Origin: a virus
Virus record (IMG/VR): IMGVR_UViG_3300009152_000096
Location: 1-37,814 of that record
Reading direction: 5' to 3' (one strand)
DNA length: 37,814 nt
This document shows, in pieces, positions 6,374-32,666 of this stretch (position 1 is the stretch's first letter; every line of letters begins with the position of its first letter). The position numbers and the translations under genes were made by a program. The notes under the pieces were generated by a model. That model was not told the origin of the DNA and did not search any database. It saw only the letters and a program-made list of their open reading frames with translations.

Positions 6374-6381
6374 TATTTATA
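6374..6381 (-). promoter_or_regulatory. T4-type late promoter TATAAATA for the partial fibre gene
   Basis: The minus strand reads TATAAATA, the exact T4 late-promoter core recognised by gp55-RNA polymerase with gp33 and the sliding clamp. It overlaps the TAA stop of the 2222-residue fibre gene and lies about 42 bp upstream of the TTG start of the next fibre. Exact match and position support it; transcription is inferred. Confidence 0.75.
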
Positions 6382-12300: not shown

Positions 12301-13045
12301 TCAAACCTACTTGGTTTGGAGTTGTAAAGGTACACTCATTGAACAGAATTGCTGGCTCTAGAGTTGTAGATTGCACAACACTACCATCAACTAAAGCACC
12401 ACGACCAGAAACTAGTGACGTAGGATAGTTATCTGGAGTATCATATCCGTAGGGATCAGATGCTGAAGTTACTGATCCACGATTCAGTATATTAACTTTG
12501 TGAATATATGGACTACGAGTAGTCGTAATCGCATTTGAAGCAAATCTAAATCCGTATCCAGTATCTGCTGAAGAGTTATAGTAAAAATTGCATATAGAAA
12601 GATCTAGAATACCAGTCTCACCATTCAGAAGAAATGCATCAAGTCTCTGTGTTCCAGATGTTGGCTGAATGATGGTAGATGATAGACCATTACCCTGTAC
12701 GATAACTCCCTGAGGAACTGTGAGTGGAAAAACTTCAGTATAGGTGCCAGCAGAAATCTGAATTGTGTCTCCAGATACTGCTACAGTTAGTGCCTTCTGT
12801 AGTGTAGCATATGCACTCGAAAGACTCTTACCATCATTAGTATCTAACCCCGCCTTTGAGATATACCAAGTTTGTCCAGGATACCCACCACCAAGAGATA
12901 CTACGCTTTCAGTACCACTTTGATCCTTCTTAGTAAATGCCTTACCATCATAAGTATTAAGAGCAATTTCACCAAGCTGCAATTGCTCCACTGTAGGAAC
13001 TTTGCCGGGTACGGCGGATCTTCTAATTCTTATAGGCGTTGACAT
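6377..13045 (-). CDS. Giant repeat-rich tail fibre protein (2222 aa)
   Basis: Structural fibre protein. Residues 1-60 form an N-terminal attachment-like segment (MSTPIRIRRSAVPGKVPTVE, then LQLGEIALNTYDGKAF), often seen in marine myovirus fibres. Residues about 60-330 look like a right-handed beta-helix (GDTIQISAGTYTEVFPLTVP). Residues about 580-1110 are an array of roughly 30-residue units built on RVTGISTLTGDTEFTNNVRV and SGITTLTTL. Residues about 1230-2055 carry a second repeat type (TLYSNVGVVTFISGTNLNYS). The last 130 residues are a non-repeat domain ending INYVAYKL. ATG at 13045 follows an AGAGAGAA ribosome-binding site. A late promoter variant lies upstream. No S74 chaperone is visible. 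Probably a long beta-structured trimeric shaft; which fibre of T4 it replaces is unclear. Confidence 0.85.
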   Translation of the reverse strand: MSTPIRIRRSAVPGKVPTVEQLQLGEIALNTYDGKAFTKKDQSGTESVVSLGGGYPGQTWYISKAGLDTNDGKSLSSAYATLQKALTVAVSGDTIQISAGTYTEVFPLTVPQGVIVQGNGLSSTIIQPTSGTQRLDAFLLNGETGILDLSICNFYYNSSADTGYGFRFASNAITTTRSPYIHKVNILNRGSVTSASDPYGYDTPDNYPTSLVSGRGALVDGSVVQSTTLEPAILFNECTFTTPNQVGLRMINGAKADWINCFTYFSSKGIEGVSGSVGVGSTANVTLRLSGITTATLAANYVIKYYQSGSPVAIGTIVSTSGIATARPYVTILGKGSGTFNSVGIGSTQDIRIFQSNGITQVGSASTILWADYQKFGADLRSIASADNFGQYGVTADGVGVQLRLFGYAFDCVGSGKTFTQDPTLTVKGNEAVQLNGGRVYFQSVDQAGNFRVGSIFEISQETGAVSLASTSNIQILGTASITNLDITGLSTFSGQIYHYNSNFTTNQATYNLINDTATRVNFAGAGTDITIGSATGIATIRNASVKLTGDTDSYTTTSGTLVVTGGVGISSNVNIGKDFRVAGVSTFVSPVRLDSSFRVAGVSTFASDTIFNTNTLVSGIATVGNFRVTGISTLTGDVELSNNLRTSGVSTFVGDSRFSNNVNVSGITTTANFRVSGLSTFTGTVNLSSHLNVLGITTLTTLRVTGISTLTGNTEFTNNVRVSGITTLTTLRVTGISTLSGDVELGNNLRTSGVSTFTGNVLLSNHLNVSGITTLTTLRVTGISTLTGDTEFTNNVRVSGITTLTTLRVTGISTLTGDTEFTNNVRVSGITTLTTLRVTGISTLSGDVELSNNLRTAGVSTLTGNVLLSNHLNVSGITTTGNLRVTGISTLSGDTEFTNNVRVSGITTLTTLRVTGISTLTGDTEFTNNVRVSGITTLTTLRITGISTLSGDVELSNNLRTAGVSTFTGNVLLSNHLNVSGIATVGNFRVTGISTLTGDTEFTNNVRVSGITTLTTLRVTGISTLTGDTEFTNNVQVSGIATVGNFRVTGISTLTGDTEFTNNVRVSGITTLTTLRVSGISTFNSNVRILNTLFATGIATFVSNVRIQGDLSVEGTTTTIDTQNLLIEDKNIGIGSVASATNITADGGGITLFGTTDKTFNWLDASGSWTSSENLDLLTGKVYKISSQEVLSSTSLGAGITNSSLQRLGTLYELNVSGVSTFPNVVITDLQVSGIASVRTLRSNIGIVTYFNSDYLYTDSTSVGIKTGTSILGIATNVVGINTVSILVGDIISALSIPGQTTVVAISTNSNSVTISKYTTNTGISTENIQISRSNNAGIGSISTLRVNSGIITSAGISSAVITYATLNDTEIVNLQVSGIASVRTLRSNIGIVTYFNSEYLYNSGIGSISTLIVNSGLATHINVSGIITALDARVSGAATITRLDSSNIFVGVGTINSFISTDTYVSGIGSISTLYSNSGSITGLTATSLQVTNTNSTGIITAANLRATNVEIVGISTVSDIRINTGIVTDIRGKYLTYTNTSTTIVSASSTIGVGTDRIGISTANVQVGDLLNSAGGDFIPGTSVIVVQTGTVIFSPVSSNISPQTSVVTISRSANVGIASISTLYVNSGIATQFNITQSNITQLVSSGVLVSGITTTNILYANSGVVTSISGTNLNYTGIGTISNLYLNNLYSLSGIVTTLSGTNISYSGIGTIDQLSGTGIAYTSADVTYVRSQNLRATGIGTIDTLYSNVGLVTFISGTNLSYSGLGTVNTLYSNVGLVTFISGTNLNYTGVGTISVLIGTGITYSSADLTNLRSFSLNVSDTGNIQTLYSNVGVVTTLSGTQVSYTNAILSGVTSATTLYANVGVVTFISGSNLSISGIGTIAQLSGTGIAYTSADLTHLRSQNLRATGIGTIDTLYSNVGVVTTLSGTRSTYQNIDNTNLYTSGVGSISTLKTNVGLVTFVSGTNLSYSGVGTITSLYGSDIAYSGVGTIGTLYSNIGFVTTLSGTNLNYSGISSIQNLYANVGVITFISGTNLNYSGVGTIAQVLSVNVRTSGITTTTDFHVGTGGSVFSVTSGIGSVGIGTTAAKEKLQVYGNILYSDNVNTGTARVAITTSLATTIHESFSRLEYRSVEYLIQASCSGAGNTGRYQFTKILSVHDGTTAYNVEYATVGTGTDVSTYVVDVDQGLDAGYIRLQATPAQTGITTYVINYVAYKL
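9720..11330 (-). repeat. In-frame tandem repeat array in the 2222-aa fibre
   Basis: About 30-codon units (roughly 87-90 bp) encode variations of GISTLTGDTEFTNNVRVSGI and TTLTTLRVT. Similarity is also strong at DNA level: the same 57-bp stretch occurs exactly three times, at 9991-10047, 10219-10275 and 10534-10590 (plus-strand coordinates). Spacings of 228 and 315 bp are multiples of three, so unequal exchange would keep the frame. Confidence 0.85.
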
Positions 13046-13132: not shown

Positions 13133-15034
13133 TTAATCATACGATGAGGTCATTGTATATTTGTAAACTAAGTCACCTCCAATAAGCTTAGATACACTTA
13201 CATAAGCTATTCCAGGATTACCCCTATAAGTATTATGTACAAATAAATTAGCTTGAAAATAGAAAACATCTCCAGAATTATAGGAAGCTTCATAAAAAGT
13301 ATATGTTCCCTGACTTCTCGTAAATGTAAAAATTTGTGAGCCGTTTTTATAAAGACTAATAGCACTATCAGTACCTATAATAGAAGGAGCGAATAGGTTA
13401 GGTTCAACAAAAATAAAGGATAAGATTTCGCTTCCTGTTGGTGATGCCACAAGGTTTTCACTTGTAAACGTTCCGGCAGAAAGAAACTCAGAGCTTGAAC
13501 TAATAGCACTCCCAGAATCCTCCTCTCCAAGTGCCCAAAAATTAGGATTAACATTATTATACACAACACCAAGAAGCCCTCCCGCTGTCAGACCACCATA
13601 GTTATCCAATATTACAGAAGTTTCAGTAGCATACCCACGGGACACAGCATAACCACCAGCTGCGCCATTGCCGCCAGCTCCACCAGCTGCGCCGCCAGCT
13701 CCTGATCCAACATTTCCTGAGTTTCCAGAATTCCCAGAGTAGCCAGTACCTCCGGTGCTTCCACTCGCACCTGGGCCGCCGCCAGTTCCGCCGAAGCCAC
13801 CTTCCCCACCACGGCCGCCAGCTCCACCAAAGTAAGTCAGGCCACTAGCAGGACTAATACTATAATATATTGATACACCAGTATTAGAAAAACTTCCTCC
13901 CGTTCCATAAACTATAAGATCATTATAATCTGCACCACTACCAACGTCATCTATGTAAAGATCACCAGCAATTATCTGAAAAGATGGAGCCCCGTAACCG
14001 TAGGTGCCTATAGTAACTGGATAATATAAACCAGAAGTAAGAATAAGTGGAGAAGTTCCTGAGCCATTATACCCAAGCGTAATATTACCGACACCAGAAA
14101 TATTTGCATAACTCTGATAGTTTGCATCTCTAAAGACAGAAAACGGAACATATACTTGACCACCAGTGCCTTGAGCACCTGTAGAGCCGCTTTGACCAGA
14201 GGTGTAGCCCGGATAACCATAGCCGCCTATCCCACCAGCACCGCCGCCACCACCAGCACCACCCGCAAGATTAACTGTAGTATTCCGATAACACATTTCT
14301 GCACTATAGTAAGTGTAACCAGTATCAGGATCATAAGACGAATTACAAGCTCCTCCGGAATAAGAACCACCTCCATATGTCATTCCGCAAGCAAGATCAC
14401 AATCAGCAGCGCCAGTTATTATAAAAGTTTCTGTTCCTCCTAAGGGGGCGGCATAAGTATAAGATCCAGTACCACCAACACCACCAGTTCCTCCAGAGCC
14501 ACCCCGTCCTCCTCCTCCTCCGCCGCCATAGATCTTACCACCAGTATAATTTTCGATGCGAACACTTCCATGAGATACGGTTATTGCATTTCCACCGGCA
14601 GTGGGGATAAAGTTTGGGGCATAGCCAGGGGTGCCAGCAAGTCCACGTATCAATCCATAATTTCTTACAGTTAAGGTCCCCTGTAATGAGGCCCCATAGG
14701 AATTAGAAGCAGAATTTACTATAAATCCCCCATTGATTGTCACGCCAGAACTTACAATTAAAGTCTTTGGAATATTCTGACCCCAAGCTGCTCCAAAAGA
14801 ATTTCCAGGGTTAAAATTAGAATATGTACCGTTCTCAAGAGTAACAACAATTCCCCGAGTAGTTCCATAAAAGTTACTCATGGAGATTGTACCACTTTGA
14901 GGAACTGTGGTATTATTTTCAGTCACAAGACCATAGGGCTCCTCATAGTACTCGCTCAAGGCAATTGGATTAGATCCAGTGAATTCAGTTTGAATCTCGG
15001 AAAAGTTTATTGGTCCAGAGGATTGAAGAGTCAT
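13133..15034 (-). CDS. Glycine-rich virion protein, possible tip adhesin (633 aa)
   Basis: Starts MTLQSSGPINFSEIQTEF, an N-terminal sequence seen in many marine T4-like structural proteins. Two long glycine-rich tracts (about residues 175-290 and 405-470; for example GGGGGGGRGGSGGTGG and GGAGGRGGEGGFGGTGG) alternate with beta-rich segments and aromatic loops. Such tracts resemble the polyglycine-II sandwich of gp38-type adhesins of T-even phages. The start overlaps the stop of the 2361-residue fibre by 4 bp (ATGA), so the two are probably translated together and this protein could bind that fibre's tip. A cysteine-containing loop (CDLACGMTYGGG, near residue 215) is present. A structural role is well supported; an adhesin role is inference. 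Confidence 0.65.
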   Translation of the reverse strand: MTLQSSGPINFSEIQTEFTGSNPIALSEYYEEPYGLVTENNTTVPQSGTISMSNFYGTTRGIVVTLENGTYSNFNPGNSFGAAWGQNIPKTLIVSSGVTINGGFIVNSASNSYGASLQGTLTVRNYGLIRGLAGTPGYAPNFIPTAGGNAITVSHGSVRIENYTGGKIYGGGGGGGRGGSGGTGGVGGTGSYTYAAPLGGTETFIITGAADCDLACGMTYGGGSYSGGACNSSYDPDTGYTYYSAEMCYRNTTVNLAGGAGGGGGAGGIGGYGYPGYTSGQSGSTGAQGTGGQVYVPFSVFRDANYQSYANISGVGNITLGYNGSGTSPLILTSGLYYPVTIGTYGYGAPSFQIIAGDLYIDDVGSGADYNDLIVYGTGGSFSNTGVSIYYSISPASGLTYFGGAGGRGGEGGFGGTGGGPGASGSTGGTGYSGNSGNSGNVGSGAGGAAGGAGGNGAAGGYAVSRGYATETSVILDNYGGLTAGGLLGVVYNNVNPNFWALGEEDSGSAISSSSEFLSAGTFTSENLVASPTGSEILSFIFVEPNLFAPSIIGTDSAISLYKNGSQIFTFTRSQGTYTFYEASYNSGDVFYFQANLFVHNTYRGNPGIAYVSVSKLIGGDLVYKYTMTSSYD

Positions 15035-18000
15035 TGTGCTTTTGATTCTAGCGTTTTAACTTTTTCCTGAAGTTCCTTAATAGCCTCAATAAGAAGTGGA
15101 ACAAGCTTCTCATACTGAACTGTCAGATACTCAGAATTTACTGGAGCTGGCTTAACCGCTTCTGGAAGAACCTTAAGAACTTCCTGAGCAGAAACACCAG
15201 CAATTCTATCCTCAGAAAGTAGACCAAGATTTGCTGCAATTCCGTTAAAGTTGTAGGTAAATCCACTCAAGGAGCAAACTTTACTTAGTGCATTTTCAAT
15301 TGGTCTGATGTTTGTCTTCAGACGAATATCCGAAGCAAATGCTGTAATATCTCCAGTAACTGATAGTGCATTTGTCGATGCATTATATGTGAGTCCACTA
15401 TCCAAGGTTACCGTAGAGTTTCCAGTACTTGAAACTAGTGCAACATACCAAGAACCAGTATCACCACTACCATTAACATAAGTGGCACTTGAAGTAGCTG
15501 CATTTCCAGTACATGATCCGGAAGAACCGGTTACATTCCCAGTCACGTTTCCAGTGAGATTACCGGTTACATTACCAGTAAGATTACCAGTTACATTACC
15601 AGTTACATTACCGCCAAGATTACCACTAAAGGTTGCAGTAATTGTACCAGCACTAAAGTTACCTGATCCATCACGAAGAACAATTTTATCTCCAGTATTT
15701 GCAGAAGTAGCGTCAACTGCCCAGGTTACCGCAGAGGATCCATCATAGTTTGATCCAGTTAGGTATGAACCACGAACTAATGAGAATGGATTTGATGCAG
15801 TAATGGTAATAGCAGCACTTCCATTAAATCCAACTCCATTAATATTTCTAGTGGTCTGAAGAACTGTTGCACTACCCGCATTTCCACTTACAGTACCAGT
15901 TACATTACCAGTTAAGCTTGCAGTAATTGTACCAGCACTAAAGTTACCAGAACTATCACGAGCAACAACCTTACTTGCGGTATTGTTTGGAGTAGCATCG
16001 ACAGCCCAGGTTACTGCAGTAGATCCATCGTATGCAGTGCCAGTTAAGTATGAACCAGCAGATAGACTGTTGGGACTTGCTGAAGTTATAGTAATATTCG
16101 ATCCACCATTAAAGGAAACTCCATTAATAGTTCTAGCAGTCTGAAGAGTAGTTGCAGTGGCTGCATTTCCAGTACATGATCCTGAAGAGCCGGTTACATT
16201 TCCAGTTACATTTCCAGTTAAGCTTGCAGTAATTGTACCAGCACTAAAGTTGCCTGATCCATCACGAAGAACAATTGTGCTAGCAGTATTTGCACTATCC
16301 GAGGTATAGCCATCCAAATAATCTGCGTTTAAATTTGTTACCTTAGTCGTAGAAGAAACTGTAAGAGGTGCAGTTCCAGTCGCAACAGAAGACGTGAATG
16401 ATGTTCCAGAAACCGATCCAGTAACAAGTAAGTTACTAGAAGCATCTAGAGTCATTCCAAGAGTTCCACCAGATCCTGGAGTATTTTCAAGATCACTATG
16501 AATACCTCCCTGATACCACGAGAATCTTGATCCACTTCTAAAGTATAGAGTACTTGACTGAACTCCCAATCCATAAGATGTGGAATAAAGATTAAGCATT
16601 TGGCGAGTAGTGCTGCCAAAAAGTAGTGTGCCAGGATTTGAAATTGTAACATTTCCACTAAAGGCACCAGTAGCAGAATTTAAAGAGGTTCCTGCAGTAA
16701 TACTTCCAGAAGATCCAAAATTAAAGGTACTTGGATTGTAGTAAATTCCGGTATTAGTATAAAGATCCTGAGCACCATCTCCGGTGGTTACAGTTCCACC
16801 ATTACTTACAAAGGTTAAGTAGTGATTATTGTTCGTACTGATTCCCACCGTCGCAATTTTTTTGCTCTGAGGTGCAGTACCAGTAAATCCATTTGGAGTT
16901 AGTACATTTATAGATTGAACTGAAATATTTCCAAAACTTGTATCGCCACGGAACACTGAGGTTGAATCTACACTGAGAGTTGTATTCGTAGAAATTGAAA
17001 CATTATTTGAAAATGTAGTTATTCCCGAGAATGATGCAGCAGCCTTAAATGTAGTAATTCCAGCAAAGGATGCTCCACAGGCAACTTGAATACCACCAGT
17101 AGATGCAAATGTAGTAAATCCAATTACATTTACATCACCAAGAGTAATACGATTGACACTACCACCATTATCAAAGGTAACAATACCAGTTACTCGCAGT
17201 TGATCAAGAATTGCTCCACCATTTCGAATATCTAAAAGATCTCTTGGAGCGGTAGAATTAATACCAATTTTATCTGGAGTAATTACTGTAGAATTTGCCT
17301 GCTGACTAACTAATCCAAATCTCTTCCAACCATCATTAACTCCAGAGCCAGTATAGACCCAACCAAGATAACCACCAACTGAAGGAGTTGTAGTGTAGAT
17401 TACGTCTCCCTGAGTTACCGCATTTACTGGAGTAGCAATACCAACACTATAGGATCTGACTTGAGTTGCAGTACCCTTCAGCTCAAGTTTAATAGCTTGT
17501 ATACCATCACTTGAAGTTGAAGTTAATTTTCTATAGAGCGAAACTGGTCCTCGGAATTCCGAAGATTGGAAGTTTCCAATACCACCAGTAACCTTAAGGC
17601 TATTGTTGATGGTTACATCGTCATAAGTTACCGAAAGACTTGAATCATTAACTCCTAAGAAAGTTTCTCTTGGTAGATTAATTGAAACTTCTGATCCATT
17701 AATTGGGCTAATGATCTTGTTACCAATATAAAAATCTCCGCTATCATTTGTTCCAGTATATGAAACCGTTCCACCATTTTCCTGAACAGACTGAGTAAGT
17801 AACTGCTGTTCTCTGGTTAGTATTCGGTTTTGTCTAGATGGAAGTGCTGCTGCATAATTACCATGACCAAATCCAACATATTCGAAGGTTTGACCAGAGG
17901 CTCTAAGAATACTATGTCTTCTAAGTTCTGTGGGAATTACTCGGATCTTTCTTACAACAGAACCGCTATCGTGCAGTGCAGCTCTTGTTCCGAGAGTACC

Positions 18001-21000
18001 ACGAAGAACATTTGCAGTGTTTGCTGAAAGATTAACAGAACCAGATATTCTAAGAACCTCATTATCAATTTGGAGATAATCCCCAGTACTAAATCCTAGA
18101 ATACTATTAAGAGTAATAGAGGTTGCAGTGGTTGTAATGCCAGCCGCTGCAGTTGTACTAATTCCAGCATAGAGTGGAATCATACGACTTCCAACTCGTT
18201 CATCGACAAGTGAAGTATCTCCACCCCTAGAAGTTAATCCATTCGGAATGATGAAGCAGCTACCAGTGAATACTGCAGAATTGAACCCAGGACCAATATA
18301 GAAGTCAAAATTTGTAGTATTGATTCTATTCTTTACAATAAATGTTCCGTTATAGACTGTTTGTGCTGCCCCAGCAATTGTAAACTTATTACCAATAATT
18401 AGACCGTGAGGTTGAGAGGTTGTGACAGTTACAATTCCGGTGCTTTCATTAGTATATGATATGGCACTTGCAGTAACAACTTCATCGACCAACCTAAAGA
18501 ATCCATTAGATCCAGTAGTTCCCGTATAGATGCCAGGATTTGATCCATTATCATAACTCAGTGATCTGCTGCTAGAAATTCCTAAAATCCGATAGAGACC
18601 ATTATAGTTGCTATTGGTTCGATTACCAGTAGTTCCAACACCAACAACTTCAATTGCATCCCCAACATTATTGATAATTGAAGTTACAGATACAACTGCA
18701 GGACTCCAAGATGCTTGAGTTTTCACTCCAACAACTGTCATAGTCATGCCTATACCATAGGCAGAACCACCATCTACTAGTGTAATACCTGTGACTGTAC
18801 CAGCAGCACTTACCGCAATGTTTGCGGTAGCACCATCTCCAGTAATTCCAACACCAACTAGTCTAGCATTATAGAGAACTGTAGAAATGCCAGTGTATCC
18901 ATAATTAGTACCAAAACTAACTAGCGATAGAGACTTAGCTGCATTTAAATTATGCTCAACATTAGTATAGATTGTTGTAGTTCCACTAGAATTTGTTGCA
19001 TTAGTAATCGCAATACCAACACAATTATTTTTTAGGAAGGTTTCAACTGTCTGTTTTGTAATACTATTTCTTCTATCATTAACATTTACCTTACCTAGAA
19101 TTTCATTTTGAGCATAGGAGAGTGTTGAATTAGGATCAGAATTATAGTTATCCTTATCAATTGTTGGATAAAGATTTGAAGGACTCTGTGAATATTTTTG
19201 TCCAGAGAAGAATGAATCACTAGGAGAAATATTTGATGAGAGGCAAGTTAAGTGATAGATGCCATCAGATTTATTATAGGAATGTTCCTGGAGCTTTTCA
19301 ATATTATAGATGTATAGGGTATTTTTATATTCCTGCCTGGAGATAGTTGGAAGAGTTTGATCTCTATTGGATGAGGTATCAACATAACTTCCGATGCTTC
19401 CAGTAATTGCAAATTCAAAGTTCTTAGAATCATTCAATTTAGTAATCTTATGAATGCCATTGTAGCCAGAATATGCATATCCAACCGGATTATCAGAACT
19501 CCGAACATTACTTAATTTAATAACATCCCCAAGAATGAAATTGTGAGGTTTTTCTGTGGTTACTGTACAAATACCAACACTAGAGTTATAGACAATGTTT
19601 GATAAAATTCTAACTGCCCTGGACTGAATTTGATTGGTCAGTACCGAAAATTCACTTGAGTTATTAACCCCCGAGGTTTTAGTTTCTTGAATAATATAAT
19701 TAAGAGATGGCTCCCTTGCAACAGAGAACTCCTTAGGAATTACATAACGTAATCTATAAATTCTATCATTCGTTGTTCTTGTATCAATTTTCCTCTTAAT
19801 ATAAGATTTTGAGCTTTCATTTGTAATCAAAAATTGTCTATAAGAATTAAATCCACTTACTACAGTATTTTTACTGGCAGAGGTTGAAGTGTTTATATAC
19901 CAGTTTAAATTAGTAGTATCAAACTGTATTGGGTGTCCAATGTCGTTTGGTCTCTTATCATTTACTCTACTTACAATTTTCAGTAGGCCACCAGTTCCAT
20001 TGAAGATATCGATAGGAATAGGAGTTCCTGAAATTGCATCGTTCAGACTTCTAGAAATCTGAAGTTGACTTGATGAAAGTGATCCTCCAGTAATTGCATA
20101 GTAGATATTATCTGGAAGTACACCATCTGGCATATTACCATTATCACTCAAAATTCTTACACTTTCTCCAGTGAAGAATGAGTGTGGCACTTCAAGATTG
20201 AAGGTATTGTTTGAAGTGATACTATTTGCTGCGCCAACACGAATAACCTTAAATGATTTTTCAGAGGTTGGTCCATCAGTTCCTGCTGGAATCGGCATCA
20301 AGACTGGTGCTGATAGAGTCACCTCTGAAGTTGCCGTAGAGACATTTACATACAATACTTCATCGACCTTCGATCCAATTGCAAAGGAATCTATAATGTG
20401 TGGAGGAGGATTATCAATACTACTAGAGCCATACAAATAAATTCTATTAGAAAATGGACCACCAGAAGCACTTGTGGTCAAACCTACGTTTAAGGAAACC
20501 CAAGTTTTTGTATCTGGATCTGTAGCATCATCCTTTGGGGGAATGATGTGGGTAATACATCCAACATCATCTCGATCAAATGAATTTTCCTGGAATCCCT
20601 TTGCAACCAGAGATCTTCCACCAAAGTTTGAGTTTGAGTTGGTGATAGACATATCACCACCGCTTTCTGCCAAGAAGTGCTGAGAAAAACCAATGGAGAA
20701 AATAGAAACTGCCTGAATAAAGCCACCATTAGAAGCTCTAACGTGATAGCTTTCATATTCTGGCCTATAGATTGCTTGAGAATTTAGATGTAGTGGTACA
20801 GAAGAAATACCAGCAGAAATCGAAGTTTCATTAGTCTGGTAGGTTCCAGTATTTTTGTTATAAATTACAAACGCATTATCATCTCTCTGTAAACTAATAC
20901 CAGTAAACTGGGCAACAATGATTGACTTAAATCCAGAAGATTTTGATCCGTTTGCATACAGACCATTCATTCCGTAGGTGGATCTTAAAGTACAGTTAAA

Positions 21001-22116
21001 GATATATGGTGATGCACCATTTACATTATCTGGTTCAATAACAAGTTTTTCCAGTCCAGTTAACAGAACTCCAGCAGTTGCTGGTATTGCTCCGATATTA
21101 ACATCAAATTGACGTTCGCTAGTAACTCCAATAACTGCCCAAGATCCATTATATACTGTAGAAGTAAAGCCAGAAATTCTTACAGTATCATCCTTCGAAA
21201 GACCATGTGCTCCTTGAGTGATAACTGTAGCAGTTAGTGGATTTGCAGATATTGCTGAAGCACTTGTAATACCAATATCATTTGCGCTTACAGCACCAAC
21301 AATTTTAAATTCTGGTGGAAGTGGTTCAATATCCGTATTTGGTGGGAAATCATCAATTTGTCTACCAGAACTATTACCATAAGCCTTTGAGATCTTATAG
21401 TAGTACATCTGAAGATCAGTTAGACCCGAAGAAGTACCAATGCCCACACCATTTATACCATCAGCATACTCAAAGCATGTTAATTTGTGGTGAGAGAAGT
21501 TTGGTGTGCGTACATCAGGAGTATTATTATAGTATACGGTATTATTGAGATCTCCATCAAAAAATGAGAATTGCCAGAAGTAGCATCCACCAGTTACTCG
21601 GAATATTGCCGTGCTTGTAATACCAGCATTTGTTGGATCAGGAACATACTTTGGACGAATCTTTGTCTTACGAAGATCTAAACCAACAATAGATGTACCC
21701 CTAGGTACAATAACGCCGCCCTCTGTAGAATTGAACTTGTAGAGATCGTTCTCAGGATCTTCAATATCATAATTGTTTAAATTTGTCAGTTCTGGAAGAG
21801 TTACAACTTCCCCGTTGATATTTCGATAACTTGGACTTCCCCCAGAATTAATTACTGAATAACCAGGTCGGTTATCAATATTATAAGTTCCTGGCATCAA
21901 CATGATAGAGGTCTTATCAAACCTATCATTTCCAGGACCAATATTATATGAAAATCTAGCAGATTCTAGTAAAGCCCTTTGAATCGTTTTAAATGGTCTA
22001 GTTTGTGAGTTACCCTGGTTTTCAATCGCATCAGTCGAATCCAGATCTGATGGATTAACGTAGAGTATATTGCCGTCTACATTCTTGAGAAAATTCTCTA
22101 ACCTAGAAAGGGGCAT
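15031..22116 (-). CDS. Giant tail fibre with C-terminal S74 intramolecular chaperone (2361 aa)
   Basis: Residues 1-180 hold an attachment segment and the start of a right-handed beta-helix (NVDGNILYVNPSDLD, RPFKTIQRALLESARF). A long beta-rich body follows, with many V-G-I and T-G-I turns. Near the C-terminus are shaft repeats (SAGTITASLTGNVTGN; a run of NVTG/NLTG tetrads). The last 100 residues are a peptidase S74 (endosialidase-type) chaperone, SDIRLKTNIRPIENALSKV. Ser2262 opens this motif and is the expected self-cleavage site; after trimer folding the chaperone is released. A helix IEAIKELQEKVKTLE ends the protein, as usual for this domain. ATG at 22116 lies about 30 bp after a TATAAATA late promoter. 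Frame and domain calls are strong; the receptor is unknown. Confidence 0.9.
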   Translation of the reverse strand: MPLSRLENFLKNVDGNILYVNPSDLDSTDAIENQGNSQTRPFKTIQRALLESARFSYNIGPGNDRFDKTSIMLMPGTYNIDNRPGYSVINSGGSPSYRNINGEVVTLPELTNLNNYDIEDPENDLYKFNSTEGGVIVPRGTSIVGLDLRKTKIRPKYVPDPTNAGITSTAIFRVTGGCYFWQFSFFDGDLNNTVYYNNTPDVRTPNFSHHKLTCFEYADGINGVGIGTSSGLTDLQMYYYKISKAYGNSSGRQIDDFPPNTDIEPLPPEFKIVGAVSANDIGITSASAISANPLTATVITQGAHGLSKDDTVRISGFTSTVYNGSWAVIGVTSERQFDVNIGAIPATAGVLLTGLEKLVIEPDNVNGASPYIFNCTLRSTYGMNGLYANGSKSSGFKSIIVAQFTGISLQRDDNAFVIYNKNTGTYQTNETSISAGISSVPLHLNSQAIYRPEYESYHVRASNGGFIQAVSIFSIGFSQHFLAESGGDMSITNSNSNFGGRSLVAKGFQENSFDRDDVGCITHIIPPKDDATDPDTKTWVSLNVGLTTSASGGPFSNRIYLYGSSSIDNPPPHIIDSFAIGSKVDEVLYVNVSTATSEVTLSAPVLMPIPAGTDGPTSEKSFKVIRVGAANSITSNNTFNLEVPHSFFTGESVRILSDNGNMPDGVLPDNIYYAITGGSLSSSQLQISRSLNDAISGTPIPIDIFNGTGGLLKIVSRVNDKRPNDIGHPIQFDTTNLNWYINTSTSASKNTVVSGFNSYRQFLITNESSKSYIKRKIDTRTTNDRIYRLRYVIPKEFSVAREPSLNYIIQETKTSGVNNSSEFSVLTNQIQSRAVRILSNIVYNSSVGICTVTTEKPHNFILGDVIKLSNVRSSDNPVGYAYSGYNGIHKITKLNDSKNFEFAITGSIGSYVDTSSNRDQTLPTISRQEYKNTLYIYNIEKLQEHSYNKSDGIYHLTCLSSNISPSDSFFSGQKYSQSPSNLYPTIDKDNYNSDPNSTLSYAQNEILGKVNVNDRRNSITKQTVETFLKNNCVGIAITNATNSSGTTTIYTNVEHNLNAAKSLSLVSFGTNYGYTGISTVLYNARLVGVGITGDGATANIAVSAAGTVTGITLVDGGSAYGIGMTMTVVGVKTQASWSPAVVSVTSIINNVGDAIEVVGVGTTGNRTNSNYNGLYRILGISSSRSLSYDNGSNPGIYTGTTGSNGFFRLVDEVVTASAISYTNESTGIVTVTTSQPHGLIIGNKFTIAGAAQTVYNGTFIVKNRINTTNFDFYIGPGFNSAVFTGSCFIIPNGLTSRGGDTSLVDERVGSRMIPLYAGISTTAAAGITTTATSITLNSILGFSTGDYLQIDNEVLRISGSVNLSANTANVLRGTLGTRAALHDSGSVVRKIRVIPTELRRHSILRASGQTFEYVGFGHGNYAAALPSRQNRILTREQQLLTQSVQENGGTVSYTGTNDSGDFYIGNKIISPINGSEVSINLPRETFLGVNDSSLSVTYDDVTINNSLKVTGGIGNFQSSEFRGPVSLYRKLTSTSSDGIQAIKLELKGTATQVRSYSVGIATPVNAVTQGDVIYTTTPSVGGYLGWVYTGSGVNDGWKRFGLVSQQANSTVITPDKIGINSTAPRDLLDIRNGGAILDQLRVTGIVTFDNGGSVNRITLGDVNVIGFTTFASTGGIQVACGASFAGITTFKAAASFSGITTFSNNVSISTNTTLSVDSTSVFRGDTSFGNISVQSINVLTPNGFTGTAPQSKKIATVGISTNNNHYLTFVSNGGTVTTGDGAQDLYTNTGIYYNPSTFNFGSSGSITAGTSLNSATGAFSGNVTISNPGTLLFGSTTRQMLNLYSTSYGLGVQSSTLYFRSGSRFSWYQGGIHSDLENTPGSGGTLGMTLDASSNLLVTGSVSGTSFTSSVATGTAPLTVSSTTKVTNLNADYLDGYTSDSANTASTIVLRDGSGNFSAGTITASLTGNVTGNVTGSSGSCTGNAATATTLQTARTINGVSFNGGSNITITSASPNSLSAGSYLTGTAYDGSTAVTWAVDATPNNTASKVVARDSSGNFSAGTITASLTGNVTGTVSGNAGSATVLQTTRNINGVGFNGSAAITITASNPFSLVRGSYLTGSNYDGSSAVTWAVDATSANTGDKIVLRDGSGNFSAGTITATFSGNLGGNVTGNVTGNLTGNVTGNLTGNVTGNVTGSSGSCTGNAATSSATYVNGSGDTGSWYVALVSSTGNSTVTLDSGLTYNASTNALSVTGDITAFASDIRLKTNIRPIENALSKVCSLSGFTYNFNGIAANLGLLSEDRIAGVSAQEVLKVLPEAVKPAPVNSEYLTVQYEKLVPLLIEAIKELQEKVKTLESKAQ
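15528..15625 (-). repeat. 12-bp tandem repeats encoding (N-V/L-T-G)n
   Basis: Inside the 2361-residue fibre gene, 12-bp units (plus strand TTACCAGTTACA and close variants) repeat about seven to eight times and encode alternating NVTG and NLTG. Similar NVTG units recur singly near 15890 and 16195, and in the partial fibre gene near 890. The array keeps frame whatever its copy number. Confidence 0.75.
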
Positions 22117-26896: not shown

Positions 26897-28162
26897 TTAG
26901 TTAATATTGGTTTTAATTTCATAGGAATCTCTAACTAAACTTAGGTAAGTAAAGCATTGATTTCCCTCAAAGGTATGACATAGATTAGAAATCATATAGT
27001 TTCCAGTGTGCTGAGATTCATAACTCTTCTTTAAAGGATTTGCAGTTGACTCAGGAATTTGGCAAGTTATTACTTGACCAGCTCTTAAATCTAAATTGCA
27101 GGGAATAGTTATATTCAATATCTGAGAAAATAGTAAGTTGTATCTTACAACCGCCTCTGCCTGATATTTAGGCAAATTTGAGGTCTCCTCAATCTTTCCC
27201 GCATCAGTAAGATTTCCTACATCCAAAGTTCTGAGTAGGTATCTTGATGGGAAATTTTCAATACCAGATGGAAGTTTAGGATACTGACTGGTGCCTGCAG
27301 AAGTTTTTAAATTCTTGCTATACTTTTCACTCAACTTATATTCAACCTTAGTTGCTTCATTTTTATACAAATTATAGAACAAGCTAGTATTTGCATACAT
27401 CCCAAGTCTTAATGAATTTAAGATATCATTATTTTTACTTATATTAGATGAAAGTATTCTAAACCTATTATTCTCATCATAAGATTCAGCAGCTTCTGTT
27501 TGAGTGTAGGTGAACACACTTTCCCCAGTAATAAGAGTATTTACACTCTTATAGAAGTATCCATCCAATGTCTCATAGAAAAAATACCCAGCAGTACCAA
27601 ATCCTCCATCCCCAGGGGGAACTGATTTTGGGCATAGCCAAGTAATAATATCAAATGGCCGCTTAGTGTTTCCAATAAAGGAATACTTATTTACAGTTTT
27701 TTCAACATTAATTGTCTTACTAGACTTTAGTGTGGAGAATATTCGATTAACGCTATCACTTATAGTTGTATCAAATCTATTACTAACTCGAACAGTTTCG
27801 TTTGCAAAGGTTTCCTTACTTACAAGTTCAGTAGAAAATATTGCACTTGTGGAACTTTTATCTGCACTTACTCGTCTAACAAATAGTCCCTTTCCCGTTG
27901 TACTAAAATTTAACTTACTTGTGCAGCCAGGAACATTTACTTGAAAATTAACTTCCTCTCCACCAAAAATATCAAATCCCCCTGGAGCATTACTCACATC
28001 AACAACTGCAAAGTCTAATTTTGCAGTAACCGTTGGGGATAAAATATCCTCATAGTATGAGAGTGATGCAATAGAATTATTTGATAAATCAATAGAATTA
28101 GCTCCACCGGACAGTGGAGTTATCTTAAATTCATCATAGATGTAATTATTTTCTGCTGACAT
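26897..28162 (-). CDS. 27: gp27-like baseplate hub protein (421 aa)
   Basis: Starts MSAENNYIYDEFKITPLSGG and shows the layout of gp27 / gpD-type hub proteins: an N-terminal barrel (IDLSNNSIASLSYYEDILSP), a middle section (KRPFDIITWLCPKSVPPGDG, FFYETLDGYFYKSVNTL), and a C-terminal barrel (LRAGQVITCQIPES, then LCHTFEGNQCFTYLSLVRDS). The pattern Y-x-I-x-x-L-x-H-x-F near the C-terminus is usual in this fold. Length is close to T4 gp27 (391). It lies directly upstream of the gp5-like gene, as expected for partners. A trimer should form the pseudo-hexameric ring joining tube to spike. Identified from pattern and position. Confidence 0.65.
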   Translation of the reverse strand: MSAENNYIYDEFKITPLSGGANSIDLSNNSIASLSYYEDILSPTVTAKLDFAVVDVSNAPGGFDIFGGEEVNFQVNVPGCTSKLNFSTTGKGLFVRRVSADKSSTSAIFSTELVSKETFANETVRVSNRFDTTISDSVNRIFSTLKSSKTINVEKTVNKYSFIGNTKRPFDIITWLCPKSVPPGDGGFGTAGYFFYETLDGYFYKSVNTLITGESVFTYTQTEAAESYDENNRFRILSSNISKNNDILNSLRLGMYANTSLFYNLYKNEATKVEYKLSEKYSKNLKTSAGTSQYPKLPSGIENFPSRYLLRTLDVGNLTDAGKIEETSNLPKYQAEAVVRYNLLFSQILNITIPCNLDLRAGQVITCQIPESTANPLKKSYESQHTGNYMISNLCHTFEGNQCFTYLSLVRDSYEIKTNIN

Positions 28163-29121
28163 TATCCAACACCATAGGTAGTATGCATATACAAGTTAGT
28201 GAGGGGATTTCTAATATTGTTATTTAGACTCATACCCGAAGGCTTCCCTGAAACGATATTCCCCGAAGGTACAGCTCTTTCACCAGAATTCACAAGTATG
28301 ATTGGCTGATAGTTTGTATTTGTAGATATCTTTTCCACAATGGACTTTTTAGATTGCCGCTTAGGCTCAACCTTCGTCGATCCTCCACCACCAATATACT
28401 CAAAATGCCAAGGCTCATATGAAAAACTTGCCCAACTTGGACGAATCCACCCATATCTTCTTCCATTTTTAACAATCCATTCCTGTGCTCCTGGAGATGA
28501 TATGTCAATAGCTCTACCCCACCCATGCACAGAAGTTCCAGGTTCTGCGGCATCCTTACCATAGCGTTGTTTCATAATAACTTGCCCGGCAAAATCTCGA
28601 TAACCTTCATTTAATATAAAATTTACACCATCCTTCCTAGCGGCTTCTTTCATTGCAAGATATGCATCTGCTGCCGGAGTCCACAATCTAGCCCCATCAC
28701 CCACAGCTTTAAGCTGATTATCCTTTAGTCTACCATTAGACCCATCAGGATTTTGTTCTCCGCCTGGAGGAAAATAAGGTACTATAGGTGGAATAATTGG
28801 GGGAACCCTAGTTGGTTCTTCTTCCTGAGGCATGAGGTTGGTAGCCTTGGGGGCAGCTATGACACCACCAGCCTCATTAGATATAGGTTGAGTTTGGAAA
28901 CTTTTAATCTTCTGAGGAATTGCTTCCGTTGTTTCAGAAGTCCTAATGGAGGAAAGATTAGTATATTTGGTTATTATACTATCTTCCTTTCGTCTTAAAG
29001 TATTGGAATCTTTTCTAAAATTTATTGTAAAGGATTCAATTGCCTGTATAAGATCTTTAGCATCGGACTCAATAATTTTTATACTTCTCTCAGTATAATC
29101 GTTTATAATGTTTTTAGCCAT
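28162..29121 (-). CDS. M15/VanY-type D,D-carboxypeptidase-like virion protein (319 aa)
   Basis: Residues 135-245 form an M15 zinc-peptidase domain: SVHGWGRAID gives ligands His199 and Asp206, and EPWHFEY gives catalytic Glu236 and ligand His239. GYRDFAGQ (residues 173-180) is the usual preceding motif. All expected residues are present, so activity on peptidoglycan stem peptides is likely. Residues 1-75 are helical and probably anchor it; residues 100-130 are a Pro-rich linker (PTRVPPIIPPIVPYFPPGG). The gene lies between a lysozyme-like gene and the gp27-like hub, with overlapping ends, so the enzyme probably rides on the baseplate and helps the tail cross the wall. Its exact place in the particle is inferred. 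Confidence 0.85.
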   Translation of the reverse strand: MAKNIINDYTERSIKIIESDAKDLIQAIESFTINFRKDSNTLRRKEDSIITKYTNLSSIRTSETTEAIPQKIKSFQTQPISNEAGGVIAAPKATNLMPQEEEPTRVPPIIPPIVPYFPPGGEQNPDGSNGRLKDNQLKAVGDGARLWTPAADAYLAMKEAARKDGVNFILNEGYRDFAGQVIMKQRYGKDAAEPGTSVHGWGRAIDISSPGAQEWIVKNGRRYGWIRPSWASFSYEPWHFEYIGGGGSTKVEPKRQSKKSIVEKISTNTNYQPIILVNSGERAVPSGNIVSGKPSGMSLNNNIRNPLTNLYMHTTYGVG

Positions 29122-30458
29122 TATACTAAGATATTAAATTGTGCCTGAACTACATCTGGATATGGATTGTTGAAATTTTTGGAGTAGCCCGGAGGAATTG
29201 CAGATCCTGCGGATATTTGTTCTCCTGAGGATGATTTTGCGGCAGATGCCCCCATTGGAAGTAATATTGGTTGAGTTGTGCCTGAACCACCATCTGAAGG
29301 TACATATGAACTTACAATCTTATTATCAGCCGATGGGGCTGGAGATCCCACCTGAGAGGTTGCAACTTGCCCTGGTGGAGCAGATTCTTTTTCTGGAGAT
29401 GAAGAAATTTCTGTAGATTTTTTAGACTTTGCTTTATTAGATTCCGCATTAGATTGATTTCCCCTAATTTGCCTAAGTACAGTCTTTAGCTTTTCATAGT
29501 CAATACTTCCAATGTTTCCTGGAAGAACATTTCCACTTGCACTCTTAAGTGCTCCCCACTCATTCGAAAGCCCTTCACTAAATTGTTCATCTGTCAGCTT
29601 TCCGGCTAACCACGCATTTCCCTGTCGTTTATTTTCTATGATTGATACTGCCATCTTATCCTGATTTTCAGGACTAAAAAGATCTTTATTTGGATCCAAT
29701 CCCGCAGCTGTTGCCTGTTCTTTGGGAGTCATAAACTGGTATCTTCCTACTGCCCCAGTTGCCTTTTTATCAACCTCAGCAATAGTCATTTTGGTTGCTC
29801 CTGGGAGATAGGTACTAGGATTCATTGATTCGTAGCTATCCTCCGTAGCTTCTCCAGAGGCAATTAAATCTAATAGGGGTTTCCACTGACCAGCAGAAGC
29901 ACCACCACTACCACCACTAGTTCCCAAGCTCTCCATAGCCATAGCCGCTGCACCTAAGCCAAGTGCTCCCAGAATAGAAGTATTAGCAGAACCATAAGAA
30001 TCTTCACTATCATTAGTGTCACTAAGAACTTCTAGTGCCTTAGTTTTTTTAACTGTGCCAGTAGTATTTTGGGTAGGTGGTGTCTTACTACTCTCACTAT
30101 ACTGTGCCAGAAGTAGACGTTCCTGCCTATCAACTTCCCGTTTTCTAGACTGTAGTTCTAATTGAAATTGACTTGACAGATTTGCAAATCCCCTCTGTAG
30201 GAAAATAAAGCGTTGTTGCAATGCACCAACCATTCCCTGAAGGATTTGATCATCTCTATTTTCCTGTATTATCCGTACTTCCTGAACCTTTGTAAGTTCT
30301 GTTTGCTGTTTTACTACCTGCAGAATTTGTGATAGATCTGAACCAGATACAATAACTGGTTCTGCAGGCACATTAGTTCGATTTACCCTAACATTAGAAG
30401 ATGAGGACAGTGAGCCCGAAAAAAATTTATTGATATTAATTTTTTTGAGTTCATCCAT
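29121..30458 (-). CDS. Baseplate-associated lysozyme / transglycosylase-like protein (445 aa)
   Basis: Residues 40-120 are predicted coiled coil (QQTELTKVQEVRIIQENRDD; RKREVDRQERLLLAQY). Residues 160-180 are Ala/Gly-rich. Residues 188-335 form a lysozyme-fold domain: PLLDLIASGEATEDSYES with likely catalytic Glu203, then GAVGRYQFMTPKEQATAAGL, the usual core of phage muramidases and SLT enzymes. The C-terminal 110 residues are low-complexity Ser/Pro/Gly. It starts inside the end of the gp51-like frame and is followed by the M15 peptidase gene. Two cell-wall enzymes side by side, ahead of a gp5-like protein with no lysozyme, suggest the wall-cutting function moved into separate hub proteins. Substrate not shown. 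Confidence 0.78.
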   Translation of the reverse strand: MDELKKININKFFSGSLSSSSNVRVNRTNVPAEPVIVSGSDLSQILQVVKQQTELTKVQEVRIIQENRDDQILQGMVGALQQRFIFLQRGFANLSSQFQLELQSRKREVDRQERLLLAQYSESSKTPPTQNTTGTVKKTKALEVLSDTNDSEDSYGSANTSILGALGLGAAAMAMESLGTSGGSGGASAGQWKPLLDLIASGEATEDSYESMNPSTYLPGATKMTIAEVDKKATGAVGRYQFMTPKEQATAAGLDPNKDLFSPENQDKMAVSIIENKRQGNAWLAGKLTDEQFSEGLSNEWGALKSASGNVLPGNIGSIDYEKLKTVLRQIRGNQSNAESNKAKSKKSTEISSSPEKESAPPGQVATSQVGSPAPSADNKIVSSYVPSDGGSGTTQPILLPMGASAAKSSSGEQISAGSAIPPGYSKNFNNPYPDVVQAQFNILV

Positions 30459-30630
30459 TGTTAGCCTTTTCTTCTTTATCTTGTATGTGTTGTCTTAACA
30501 ATTCTAAGTAAATTTCACGTTCCCATGGAATCATATTTTCAATTTCAGTCAAAGAATATTTATGAATGGTCATGAGTGAGAAATTTATTCTATAGTATGT
30601 TTCAAGATCTTCCTTTGCTAGGGCTAGGCG
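30451..30630 (-). CDS. Small gp51-like / chaperone-extension frame, no own start for the conserved part
   Basis: The frame reads RLALAKEDLETYYRINFSLM, then TIHKYSLTEIENMIPWEREI and YLELLRQHIQDKEEKANNG, 59 codons to TGA at 30451. This Y-x-x-N-F-x-L-M ... WERxIYxxLL pattern is familiar from small proteins next to the gp26 gene in T4-like marine phages. The only ATG (30573) lies after the start of the patterned part, and no GTG or TTG precedes it. The frame is -1 relative to gp26 and connects through a TTTTTTC heptamer. It is probably made as a gp26 fusion; independent translation from 30573 would give a 40-residue product. It ends 8 bp inside the lysozyme-like gene. Whether it equals T4 gp51 is uncertain. 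Confidence 0.7.
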   Translation of the reverse strand, partial: RLALAKEDLETYYRINFSLMTIHKYSLTEIENMIPWEREIYLELLRQHIQDKEEKANNG

Positions 30631-31349
30631 AAAAAATCGTTCAGTCCCTCAAGAACAACATCATTAACAATCTCAGTATTTGGATTCTTAACCTGAAGCT
30701 TGAGTGATAATTTTGGCATTGTTTCAAAAAACTGCTCAAGCTTTTTATATTGATGTGGGGTTAGTTTTTCAATATAAGATAGCAACTCATCTTCAGTACA
30801 GTCTGAGGCTGACCAGCACTCTTCGGTATTATATACAGTATCAATACACGAGGAAACTAACTTAAGATTTTTCTCAACATTAGCTACAGAGGTTCTATCA
30901 AGTTCAAAGGTATTCTCAATAAATTGTAGCAGAGAAGGATACTTCATTTGAATATTATATCCATTTTCCAAATCAATTGTAGAACTATGATTGTCTGGAA
31001 CTACAACTTTAATTTGATCCACAAATATAGTTACTGGAACTTCAGTCTTACCATCGTCTCCACAGGTTATAATAAGTTCTATAGATTCTCCAATAGACTT
31101 AGATCTAATTTGTAGAAACAAATATTCAATATCAAATGCTGGCAGTTCTTCTACCTTAATCCCTCTAGTAATGATGCAGTTATCGAGGACTTGCTTGATT
31201 GCTCTTGAAATTTGACTCAGCTCCCTAGTTTCCAGGGCTAAAATTAATATCTTCTCTTCTCCTACAAAAAATGGACGAAACTTTACCTTCTTTTTATTGG
31301 AAGGAAGAATCAATTCATATTGTGGAGCAGTTTGTGTCGGTAATGGCAT
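30624..31349 (-). CDS. 26: gp26-family baseplate hub / tail assembly protein (241 aa)
   Basis: The N-terminus YELILPSNKKKVKFRPFFVG and the helical remainder (ALETRELSQISRAIKQVLDN; DIEYLFLQIRSKSIGESIEL) match the T4 baseplate protein family PF12322 (gp26/gp51 type). A C-terminal part includes CTEDELLSYIEKLTPHQYKK and ends DVVLEGLNDFFA. The stop TAG is immediately preceded by GAT TTT TTC GCC, containing a slippery heptamer, so a share of ribosomes may continue into the small frame at 30451-30630. The role would be catalysing hub assembly or acting as a tail chaperone. It starts the hub operon; no clear promoter or strong ribosome-binding site is visible upstream. Length 241 against 208 for T4 gp26. 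Confidence 0.75.
   Translation of the reverse strand: MPLPTQTAPQYELILPSNKKKVKFRPFFVGEEKILILALETRELSQISRAIKQVLDNCIITRGIKVEELPAFDIEYLFLQIRSKSIGESIELIITCGDDGKTEVPVTIFVDQIKVVVPDNHSSTIDLENGYNIQMKYPSLLQFIENTFELDRTSVANVEKNLKLVSSCIDTVYNTEECWSASDCTEDELLSYIEKLTPHQYKKLEQFFETMPKLSLKLQVKNPNTEIVNDVVLEGLNDFFA
30630..30636 (-). promoter_or_regulatory. Candidate -1 ribosomal frameshift site TTTTTTC
   Basis: In the gp26 frame the codons are GAT TTT TTC GCC TAG, so T TTT TTC sits in the exact X-XXY-YYZ phase needed for -1 slippage. Slipping yields CGC CTA GCC, the frame of the downstream small ORF. A GAGGGA sequence 8 nt upstream could act as an internal Shine-Dalgarno stimulator, as in dnaX. No strong hairpin is visible downstream. 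Confidence 0.65.
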
Positions 31350-31377: not shown

Positions 31378-32196
31378 TTAGGCAAATGTGCTGGATATGG
31401 GGGTTTCGAAATAGTCTCCCCAGGAGCTTTGAGTTGTCGCATCATTTATGGTTAGTGATGGACCAAATGCTGGAGAAGATTGGAGAACAATATACCTACT
31501 ATAGTTAAAGGTCACCGTATATGTCAATATATCAGACCCATTATAACTTACTGGAGAAGCTATAATATTGTTTGGATATGCCTTTATGAATTTATAGGTT
31601 AAGTAACTACTATTCTTAAACCTTGTCTGGTTTCCATCAGCTTCAATACTGTTCAGATCTCGTTCAAATTTAGTAACCAAGATATTTTGGGTATACTGAT
31701 CTGGATAACGAAGTCTATAGTAACTATTCTCCGCAGAAGCATCTTGAGATGTTTGTCCATTGGATAAACTTGGGGCCTCTCTTCCAGAATTTCCGTAGAG
31801 TGGATTTATATAGTTTGTCCATTCTTCAAAAAATCGAATAATTTTATGATTAGAGTCCACAAAGAATGTCATTGCAAGTTCAGGGTATTGTTTATAGAGT
31901 GGGTACTTTTCAACAATTCCTTGACGATTTCCAATTACCTCGGAAGCCTTAAATGCTGGTCCAGGTAAAATTGTATTGGAGCATAACAACTCAATATGTT
32001 CAAGTGGATCCAATCCTTCAGAAACATTATAATCCAAAACACCAGCCTTAGCCAGTCTGTTAAGAAGACCTCCACCAAGACCATTATCATTATTTGATAG
32101 TGGAAATGCGACTTTAAAAAACGAAGTTACAGATACTTTACTAAAAGTTCTCCGTATTTTTTCTATTGGATAATGTAATGTCTGGTTAGAAGACAT
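31378..32196 (-). CDS. 54: Probable gp54 baseplate tail-tube initiator (272 aa)
   Basis: The N-terminus (IRRTFSKVSVTSFFKVAFPL) and the central pattern (YPELAMTFFVDSNHKIIRFF, then EEWTNYINPLY) resemble tail-tube-fold proteins of the gp19/gp54 family: a strand of the form x-x-M-T-F-x-V-D-x-x, then a helix with R-F-F-x-x-W. The C-terminus has tube-like strands (SDILTYTVTFNYSRYIVLQS). Length 272 fits a cyanophage gp54 (T4: 320) better than the major tube protein gp19 (T4: 163). It sits beside gp48 and gp4 genes on the opposite strand. gp54 sits on the baseplate and nucleates the tube. A second tube-family protein is the main alternative. Confidence 0.6.
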   Translation of the reverse strand: MSSNQTLHYPIEKIRRTFSKVSVTSFFKVAFPLSNNDNGLGGGLLNRLAKAGVLDYNVSEGLDPLEHIELLCSNTILPGPAFKASEVIGNRQGIVEKYPLYKQYPELAMTFFVDSNHKIIRFFEEWTNYINPLYGNSGREAPSLSNGQTSQDASAENSYYRLRYPDQYTQNILVTKFERDLNSIEADGNQTRFKNSSYLTYKFIKAYPNNIIASPVSYNGSDILTYTVTFNYSRYIVLQSSPAFGPSLTINDATTQSSWGDYFETPISSTFA

Positions 32197-32205: not shown

Positions 32206-32228
32206 GTACTGGGTTGTATACTATGTAT

Positions 32229-32666
32229 ATGTATTATAGCGGAAAATTTTCCCCAAAAAATTACTCAAAGTATAAGGGGAATCCAACCAAAATTGAATAT
32301 AGATCTTCATGGGAACTTAAGTTCATGAATTACTGCGATATGAATTCTTCCATTTTGGAATGGAGTAGTGAGGAAATTATAATTCCATATTTCTGTCCAG
32401 TTCAAAACAAATATCGCAGATATTTTGTAGACTTTTATATAAAAGTTGTTGAAAAAACTGGAGATATTAAGAAATACCTAATAGAAATAAAACCAAAATA
32501 TCAACTATCAGTTCCAAATCAAAATCCTAAAAAGAAGACTAAACGATGGATTACTGAAAACACGACCTATGCGACAAATCAAGCAAAGTGGAAAGCAGCT
32601 AAAGAATACTGCGAGGATAGGTTAATGGAATTTAAAATTTTAACGGAGGATGATCTTAACGTATGA
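32229..32666 (+). CDS. 4: gp4 head completion protein, TnsA-like nuclease fold (145 aa)
   Basis: Close in pattern to T4 gp4 (150 aa): YKGNPTKIEYRSSWELKFMN, then CDMNSSILEWSSEEIIIPYF, then YFVDFYIKV and YLIEIKPKYQL. Glu29, Asp68 and Glu86-x-Lys88 fit a PD-(D/E)XK nuclease core like TnsA, which this family is thought to share. gp4 acts late in head maturation, after packaging, before tail joining. I prefer ATG 32229 (MYYSGKFSPKN), since T4-type gp4 starts just before this segment; ATG 32223 is also in frame. It overlaps the next gene by 4 bp (ATGA). First gene of a plus-strand operon divergent from gp54. Confidence 0.88.
   Translation: MYYSGKFSPKNYSKYKGNPTKIEYRSSWELKFMNYCDMNSSILEWSSEEIIIPYFCPVQNKYRRYFVDFYIKVVEKTGDIKKYLIEIKPKYQLSVPNQNPKKKTKRWITENTTYATNQAKWKAAKEYCEDRLMEFKILTEDDLNV

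Follow-up and report, generated by a model that had tools for sequence, protein, structure and literature searches.

A probable programmed -1 frameshift at the gp26-gp51 junction of an uncultured T4-like cyanophage-type virus

The end of gp26 and the overlapping -1 frame

The IMG/VR virus record IMGVR_UViG_3300009152_000096 represents an uncultured virus of the T4-like cyanophage type and of a freshwater lineage, and the whole stretch analysed here, referred to as the window, covers its positions 1 to 37,814. The focus of this study is the 3' end of the gp26-family gene, where an earlier, sequence-only reading had proposed that a programmed -1 ribosomal frameshift joins the gp26 product to a small frame of the gp51 family, thus generating a pair of proteins comparable to the products of genes G and GT of phage lambda.

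On the minus strand, gp26 ends in GAG GGA CTG AAC GAT TTT TTC GCC TAG, with the stop codon at 30626-30624 and a single sense codon separating the T TTT TTC heptamer from this stop (Table 1). The heptamer stands in exact slippage phase, and a Shine-Dalgarno (SD)-like GAGGGA element precedes it by 8 nucleotides (nt). Past the heptamer, the -1 frame opens as CGC CTA GCC and continues for 59 codons to AAC AAT GGA TGA, its stop ending at 30451 and its 3' end overlapping the ATG of the downstream gene (30458) by 8 nt. This frame contains no ATG, GTG or TTG upstream of its only ATG, at 30573 and already within the conserved part. On all of these points the window bears out the sequence-only reading. 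The predicted fusion of 299 amino acids (aa) is readable only after a -1 shift. In the long open reading frames (ORFs) of the window, T TTT TTN occurs in phase at only 5 sites in 9893 codons, and the site at the junction lies 4 codons from the gene end.

The two parts belong to known families. The gp26 product is a member of PF12322 (216.8 bits vs a cut-off of 24.5) and matches the first 232 positions of phrog_150, while the extension alone matches phrog_634, annotated as 'baseplate hub assembly catalyst', and also positions 231-280 of phrog_150, the last 50 of its C-terminus (E 5e-9). The short form and a gp51 C-terminal domain together make up the long form, as seen from these matches and from T4 gp51, which spans both parts (see below).

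Table 1. Features at and around the gp26-gp51 junction of the window
Feature	Position	Strand	Description
gp26-family gene, short form	30624..31349	-	241 aa; TAC-N, G-like; PF12322 E 3.9e-64, phrog_150 E 2.1e-68
GAGGGA, SD-like, 8 nt 5' of heptamer	30645..30650	-	probable frameshift stimulator, by inference
T TTT TTC slippery heptamer, exact -1 phase	30630..30636	-	read from sequence
-1 frame extension, gp51 family, TAC-C / T-like	30451..30630	-	59 codons and stop; phrog_634 E 7.4e-26
Downstream gene, lysozyme-like domain	29121..30458	-	445 aa; phrog_90 E 1.5e-16
Tail tube family protein, gene 5' of gp26	31378..32196	-	phrog_45 tail tube E 8e-25

Conservation of the slippery site and start codons in the -1 frame

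In a first scan, the 0 frame of all 80 IMG/VR relatives read GAT or AGT followed by TTT TTC GNN and a stop, and in 77 of them the -1 frame carried the extension from the Phe-Phe onward, the other three contigs ending too early. By tblastn, gp26 was found in 864 phage records and the extension in 1014. Removal of sequences with at least 85% nucleotide identity left 174 lineages. T TTT TTN stands in exact phase in 170 of these 174, the four exceptions being Ackermannviridae and Vibrio phage K357. Isolates with T TTT TTC infect Synechococcus, Prochlorococcus, Pelagibacter (Mosig), Aeromonas, Cronobacter, Stenotrophomonas and Vibrio (VH7D) hosts, and T TTT TTT is found instead in Caulobacter phage Cr30 and Sinorhizobium phage phiM7. 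The offset from the heptamer to the stop differs among lineages (-7, -10, -13, -16 and -31), and it is therefore the heptamer that is conserved, not its spacing from the stop. Sequencing error or a degenerating gene might be considered for a window that is a single uncultured contig, yet this explanation is refuted by the relatives, as IMG/VR contigs whose gp26 is identical share the junction, and it recurs in the 170 divergent lineages, sequenced isolates among them, which leaves it a negligible probability.

Conservation of the heptamer and its phase, which the sequence-only reading had proposed as a check, is far above synonymous expectation. When codons of the 170 lineages were resampled synonymously with the amino acids kept, T TTT TT was expected in 81±6 lineages (at most 95 in any of 200 trials); for TTTTTTC, present in 153, the expectation was 22 (maximum 35). 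These figures are not probabilities, because the lineages are mutually related and entered the count through a T6 run or another X XXY YYZ heptamer. All 170 lineages have TTT as the first Phe codon (vs 73% elsewhere), the second is TTC in 153 and TTT in 15 (vs TTC in 27% elsewhere), and the codon before Phe-Phe, whether for Ser, Asp, Asn, Ala, Gly or Arg, ends in T without exception. Pairwise synonymous conservation, which is uneven along the gene (standard deviation 0.20), is raised in the Phe columns (1.39, 1.27) and in the preceding D/S column (1.33), and is not raised in the E and G columns (1.07, 0.75).

Upstream of the heptamer, at a distance of 6-16 nt, GAGG occurs in 95 of the 170 lineages, with 36±5 expected and a maximum of 54 in 500 synonymous trials; GAGGG, SD 5-mers and SD duplex energy are also enriched near the heptamer. 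Loose SD tetramers upstream are not enriched (154 vs 151 expected), and the claim of an SD signal is thus limited to the former measures. GAGGGA is a probable stimulator of the frameshift. The same data bear on transcriptional slippage, in which the polymerase would alter the number of U residues in the mRNA at the T6 run and yield the fusion with no ribosomal shift. Polymerase slippage on homopolymers is a known route to such products (PMC5009743), but a run of six is short, the predominance of TTC over TTT at the second Phe codon is the reverse of what it leads one to expect, and the enriched SD-like element suits a ribosome, so that we consider this route very improbable.

Start codons in the -1 frame are of specific importance for distinguishing frameshifting from independent initiation, in which the extension would be a separate small protein, the annotated gp51, started by termination-reinitiation after the gp26 stop. 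No start codon is present upstream in the -1 frame in any of the 170 lineages, and 78 of them, like the window, have no ATG, GTG or TTG between the heptamer and a conserved Tyr. An ATG is found there in 85 lineages, most commonly 5 nt past the initial base of the stop codon (60 lineages), which, along with the separate annotation of gp51 by depositors, for example in P-SSM2, is what independent initiation has in its favour. Such an ATG requires at least 13 changes on a tree. The ATG at extension codon 5, carried by 62 lineages, has no SD-like triplet 4-14 nt upstream in 61 of them, and the heptamer is invariant even in lineages with an ATG. Furthermore, the -1 residues ahead of the ATG are conserved: the residue right after Phe-Phe is Arg in 146 of the 170 lineages, against A, G, V, E or stop in the 0 frame, and the position after it holds I, L or V in 168. 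This constraint ahead of any start, together with the lacking starts, indicates that the -1 frame is very probably translated from the heptamer onward, and independent initiation appears very improbable. The sequence-only reading had suggested checking whether the small frame always lacks a start, which is so upstream of the heptamer in all 170 lineages and, up to the conserved Tyr, in 78; a normal ATG with a ribosome-binding site, which it had named as contrary evidence, was not found, 61 of the 62 ATGs at the main position having no SD-like sequence.

A probable G/GT-like pair of tail assembly chaperones

The fold of the short form points in the same direction as its family membership. For the AlphaFold model of gp26 (predicted local distance difference test score, pLDDT, 85.6), the first PDB match in Foldseek is the HK97 tail assembly chaperone 2ob9, with an E of 0.52, which is weak alone; a second structural aligner matched the N-terminal domain (residues 1-86) to 2ob9 with Z 8.0 and a root-mean-square deviation of 3.8 over 84 aligned residues. 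Other structural matches of this domain are 3fgx (Z 8.1) and 5ir0 (Z 5.2), which is ORF19 of a Vibrio cholerae element resembling phage-inducible chromosomal islands (PICI-like), and the next row has Z 3.5. Searching solved structures by sequence yielded no useful match. With an E of only 0.52 beside a Z of 8, the fold support is moderate, and the domain may be described with moderate confidence as HK97 chaperone-like.

Comparable arrangements are known from other systems. Lambda G/GT resembles the window in its short protein, in a -1 extension near the 3' end and in a tail tube gene just upstream, to which the HK97 chaperone fold match of the window's short form can be added. Its slippery site is G GGA AAG, unlike the T TTT TTC of the window, where the short form has 241 aa and no tape measure match lies next door. 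In E. coli dnaX, the heptamer A AAA AAG is stimulated by an SD sequence about 10 nt upstream; it shares with the window tandem slippage and an upstream SD-like element, and differs in its Lys codons, as opposed to Phe codons, and in that the window has no clear downstream stem-loop. Pakpunavirus Adele and the Vandenendeviridae also have a conserved -1 shift at poly-T in a tail chaperone, and annotation there as a rule shows the region as a hypothetical protein of its own, but the motif is GTTTTT and the phage group is another one (PMC12846349).

The sequence and phase of the junction, its conservation, selection at synonymous sites, the lacking starts, homology and fold similarity lead us to conclude that a programmed -1 ribosomal frameshift in all likelihood takes place at the end of gp26, and that, very probably, gp26 and gp26-51 are the two members of a G/GT-like pair of tail assembly chaperones (TAC-N/TAC-NC). 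The mechanism that we infer, from the slip itself and the role of the stimulator to the ratio of the two forms and their action as chaperones, would be as follows. At the end of gp26, GAU UUU UUC is decoded with one tRNA-Phe in the P site and another in the A site, and in a minority of passages both tRNAs would slip back by one base onto UUU UUU, probably aided by pairing of GAGGGA with the 16S anti-Shine-Dalgarno sequence. Translation of 59 further codons would then give the 299-aa TAC-NC in addition to the 241-aa TAC-N, as equivalents of lambda gpGT and gpG. The lambda short form attaches to the tape measure protein, and its extension to the tube protein (PMC5009743); by analogy, the part shared by both forms would coat the tape measure protein, and tail tube subunits would be recruited by the extension.

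Several observations weigh against this interpretation. A search for a downstream stem-loop gave none that is convincing (mean z -1.6 vs -0.8 and -0.9 for controls), the Foldseek match is weak as stated above, and no tape measure match was found for the downstream gene, which has the position of the lambda tape measure gene. Moreover, the four exceptional lineages, Ackermannviridae and Vibrio K357, have no canonical heptamer. The junction of the Ackermannviridae reads GAR ATT TTC ATT TAA and is followed by an open -1 frame that has no ATG, GTG or TTG before the conserved part and matches the extension profile weakly (E about 5e-4). In Vibrio K357, it reads CTT TTC AAG TAATG, again with an open -1 frame, and reinitiation at TAATG is possible there.

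In T4, the two forms are distributed differently. T4 gp26 and gp51, described as chaperones of hub assembly (PMC3004832), both belong to PF12322. T4 gp51 spans positions 13-280 of the 282 of phrog_150, with a gp26-like domain and the extension in one frame, whereas T4 gp26 spans 14-235 and ends in ...GLKEFFELL, at the same Phe-Phe as the frameshift point. T4 thus holds the short and long forms as two separate genes, where the window would use a frameshift. The two genes lie on opposite strands, a layout repeated in Klebsiella KP1 and Acinetobacter Acj9. The match of T4 gp51 to the A2 profile (hhalign, 67% probability) is weaker than its PHROG match. Together with the HK97 chaperone fold match, T4 genes 26 and 51 support the G/GT-like pair that the sequence-only reading had proposed. 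A tentative view, which we rate below even chances, is that a single homologous junction is decoded in three ways: by tandem slippage at T TTT TTC with SD stimulation in the window and most relatives, by an imperfect slip like that of T7 gene 10 at N ATT TTC in the Ackermannviridae, and, in T4, through two separate genes that replace recoding, with a stand-alone extension perhaps also made in marine lineages that have an ATG after the stop.

Neighbouring genes, annotation and significance

The tail tube family gene lies directly 5' of the chaperone gene. After the chaperone pair, the region 28162-30458 holds the lysozyme-like ORF and a separate 319-aa VanY carboxypeptidase ORF, which also matches a tape-measure PHROG; several cyanophages have one long ORF in place of these two. 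Elsewhere in the window, a 2222-aa ORF (6377-13045) with a long run of VSGITTLTTLRVTGISTLTGDTEFTNN-type repeats probably encodes a tail fibre-like protein, and a 2361-aa ORF (15031-22116) carries a terminal Peptidase_S74 intramolecular chaperone domain (E 7e-14). The 150-aa ORF at 32214-32666, whose listed start is TTG, has a TnsA-like endonuclease N-terminal domain (E 7e-23) and is possibly the counterpart of the cyanophage gp4 head completion gene.

Vladimirov, Gautam and Davidson (Virology 2022, 566:9-15) reportedly identified the tail assembly chaperone genes TAC-N and TAC-NC in T4-like phages, and their abstract is said to name T4 genes 26 and 51 and to describe frameshifting as conserved in several T4-like groups. 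The arrangement has thus already been described for T4-like phages, and the window is a further well-supported case. Of two later papers that cite this work, one notes that slippery poly-T sequences occur in T4-like TAC-N genes (PMC12846349), and the other that some T4-like phages do without frameshifting and have a short copy and a fused long one (PMC10885494). With T4-like tail chaperones and poly-T slippery sites published, the sequence-only reading had over-rated the novelty of the junction.

In depositors' annotation, the extension is omitted, begun at an internal ATG or made a separate gene; it is unannotated in the closest isolate, DSL-LC03, and the fusion is annotated in none of the frameshift-type isolates looked at. 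Databases therefore miss, truncate or split off the extension. The analysis brings many aquatic phages, a large group, into the G/GT scheme, and it suggests that gp51, the 'baseplate hub assembly catalyst', likely serves as the long version of a chaperone for the tape measure.
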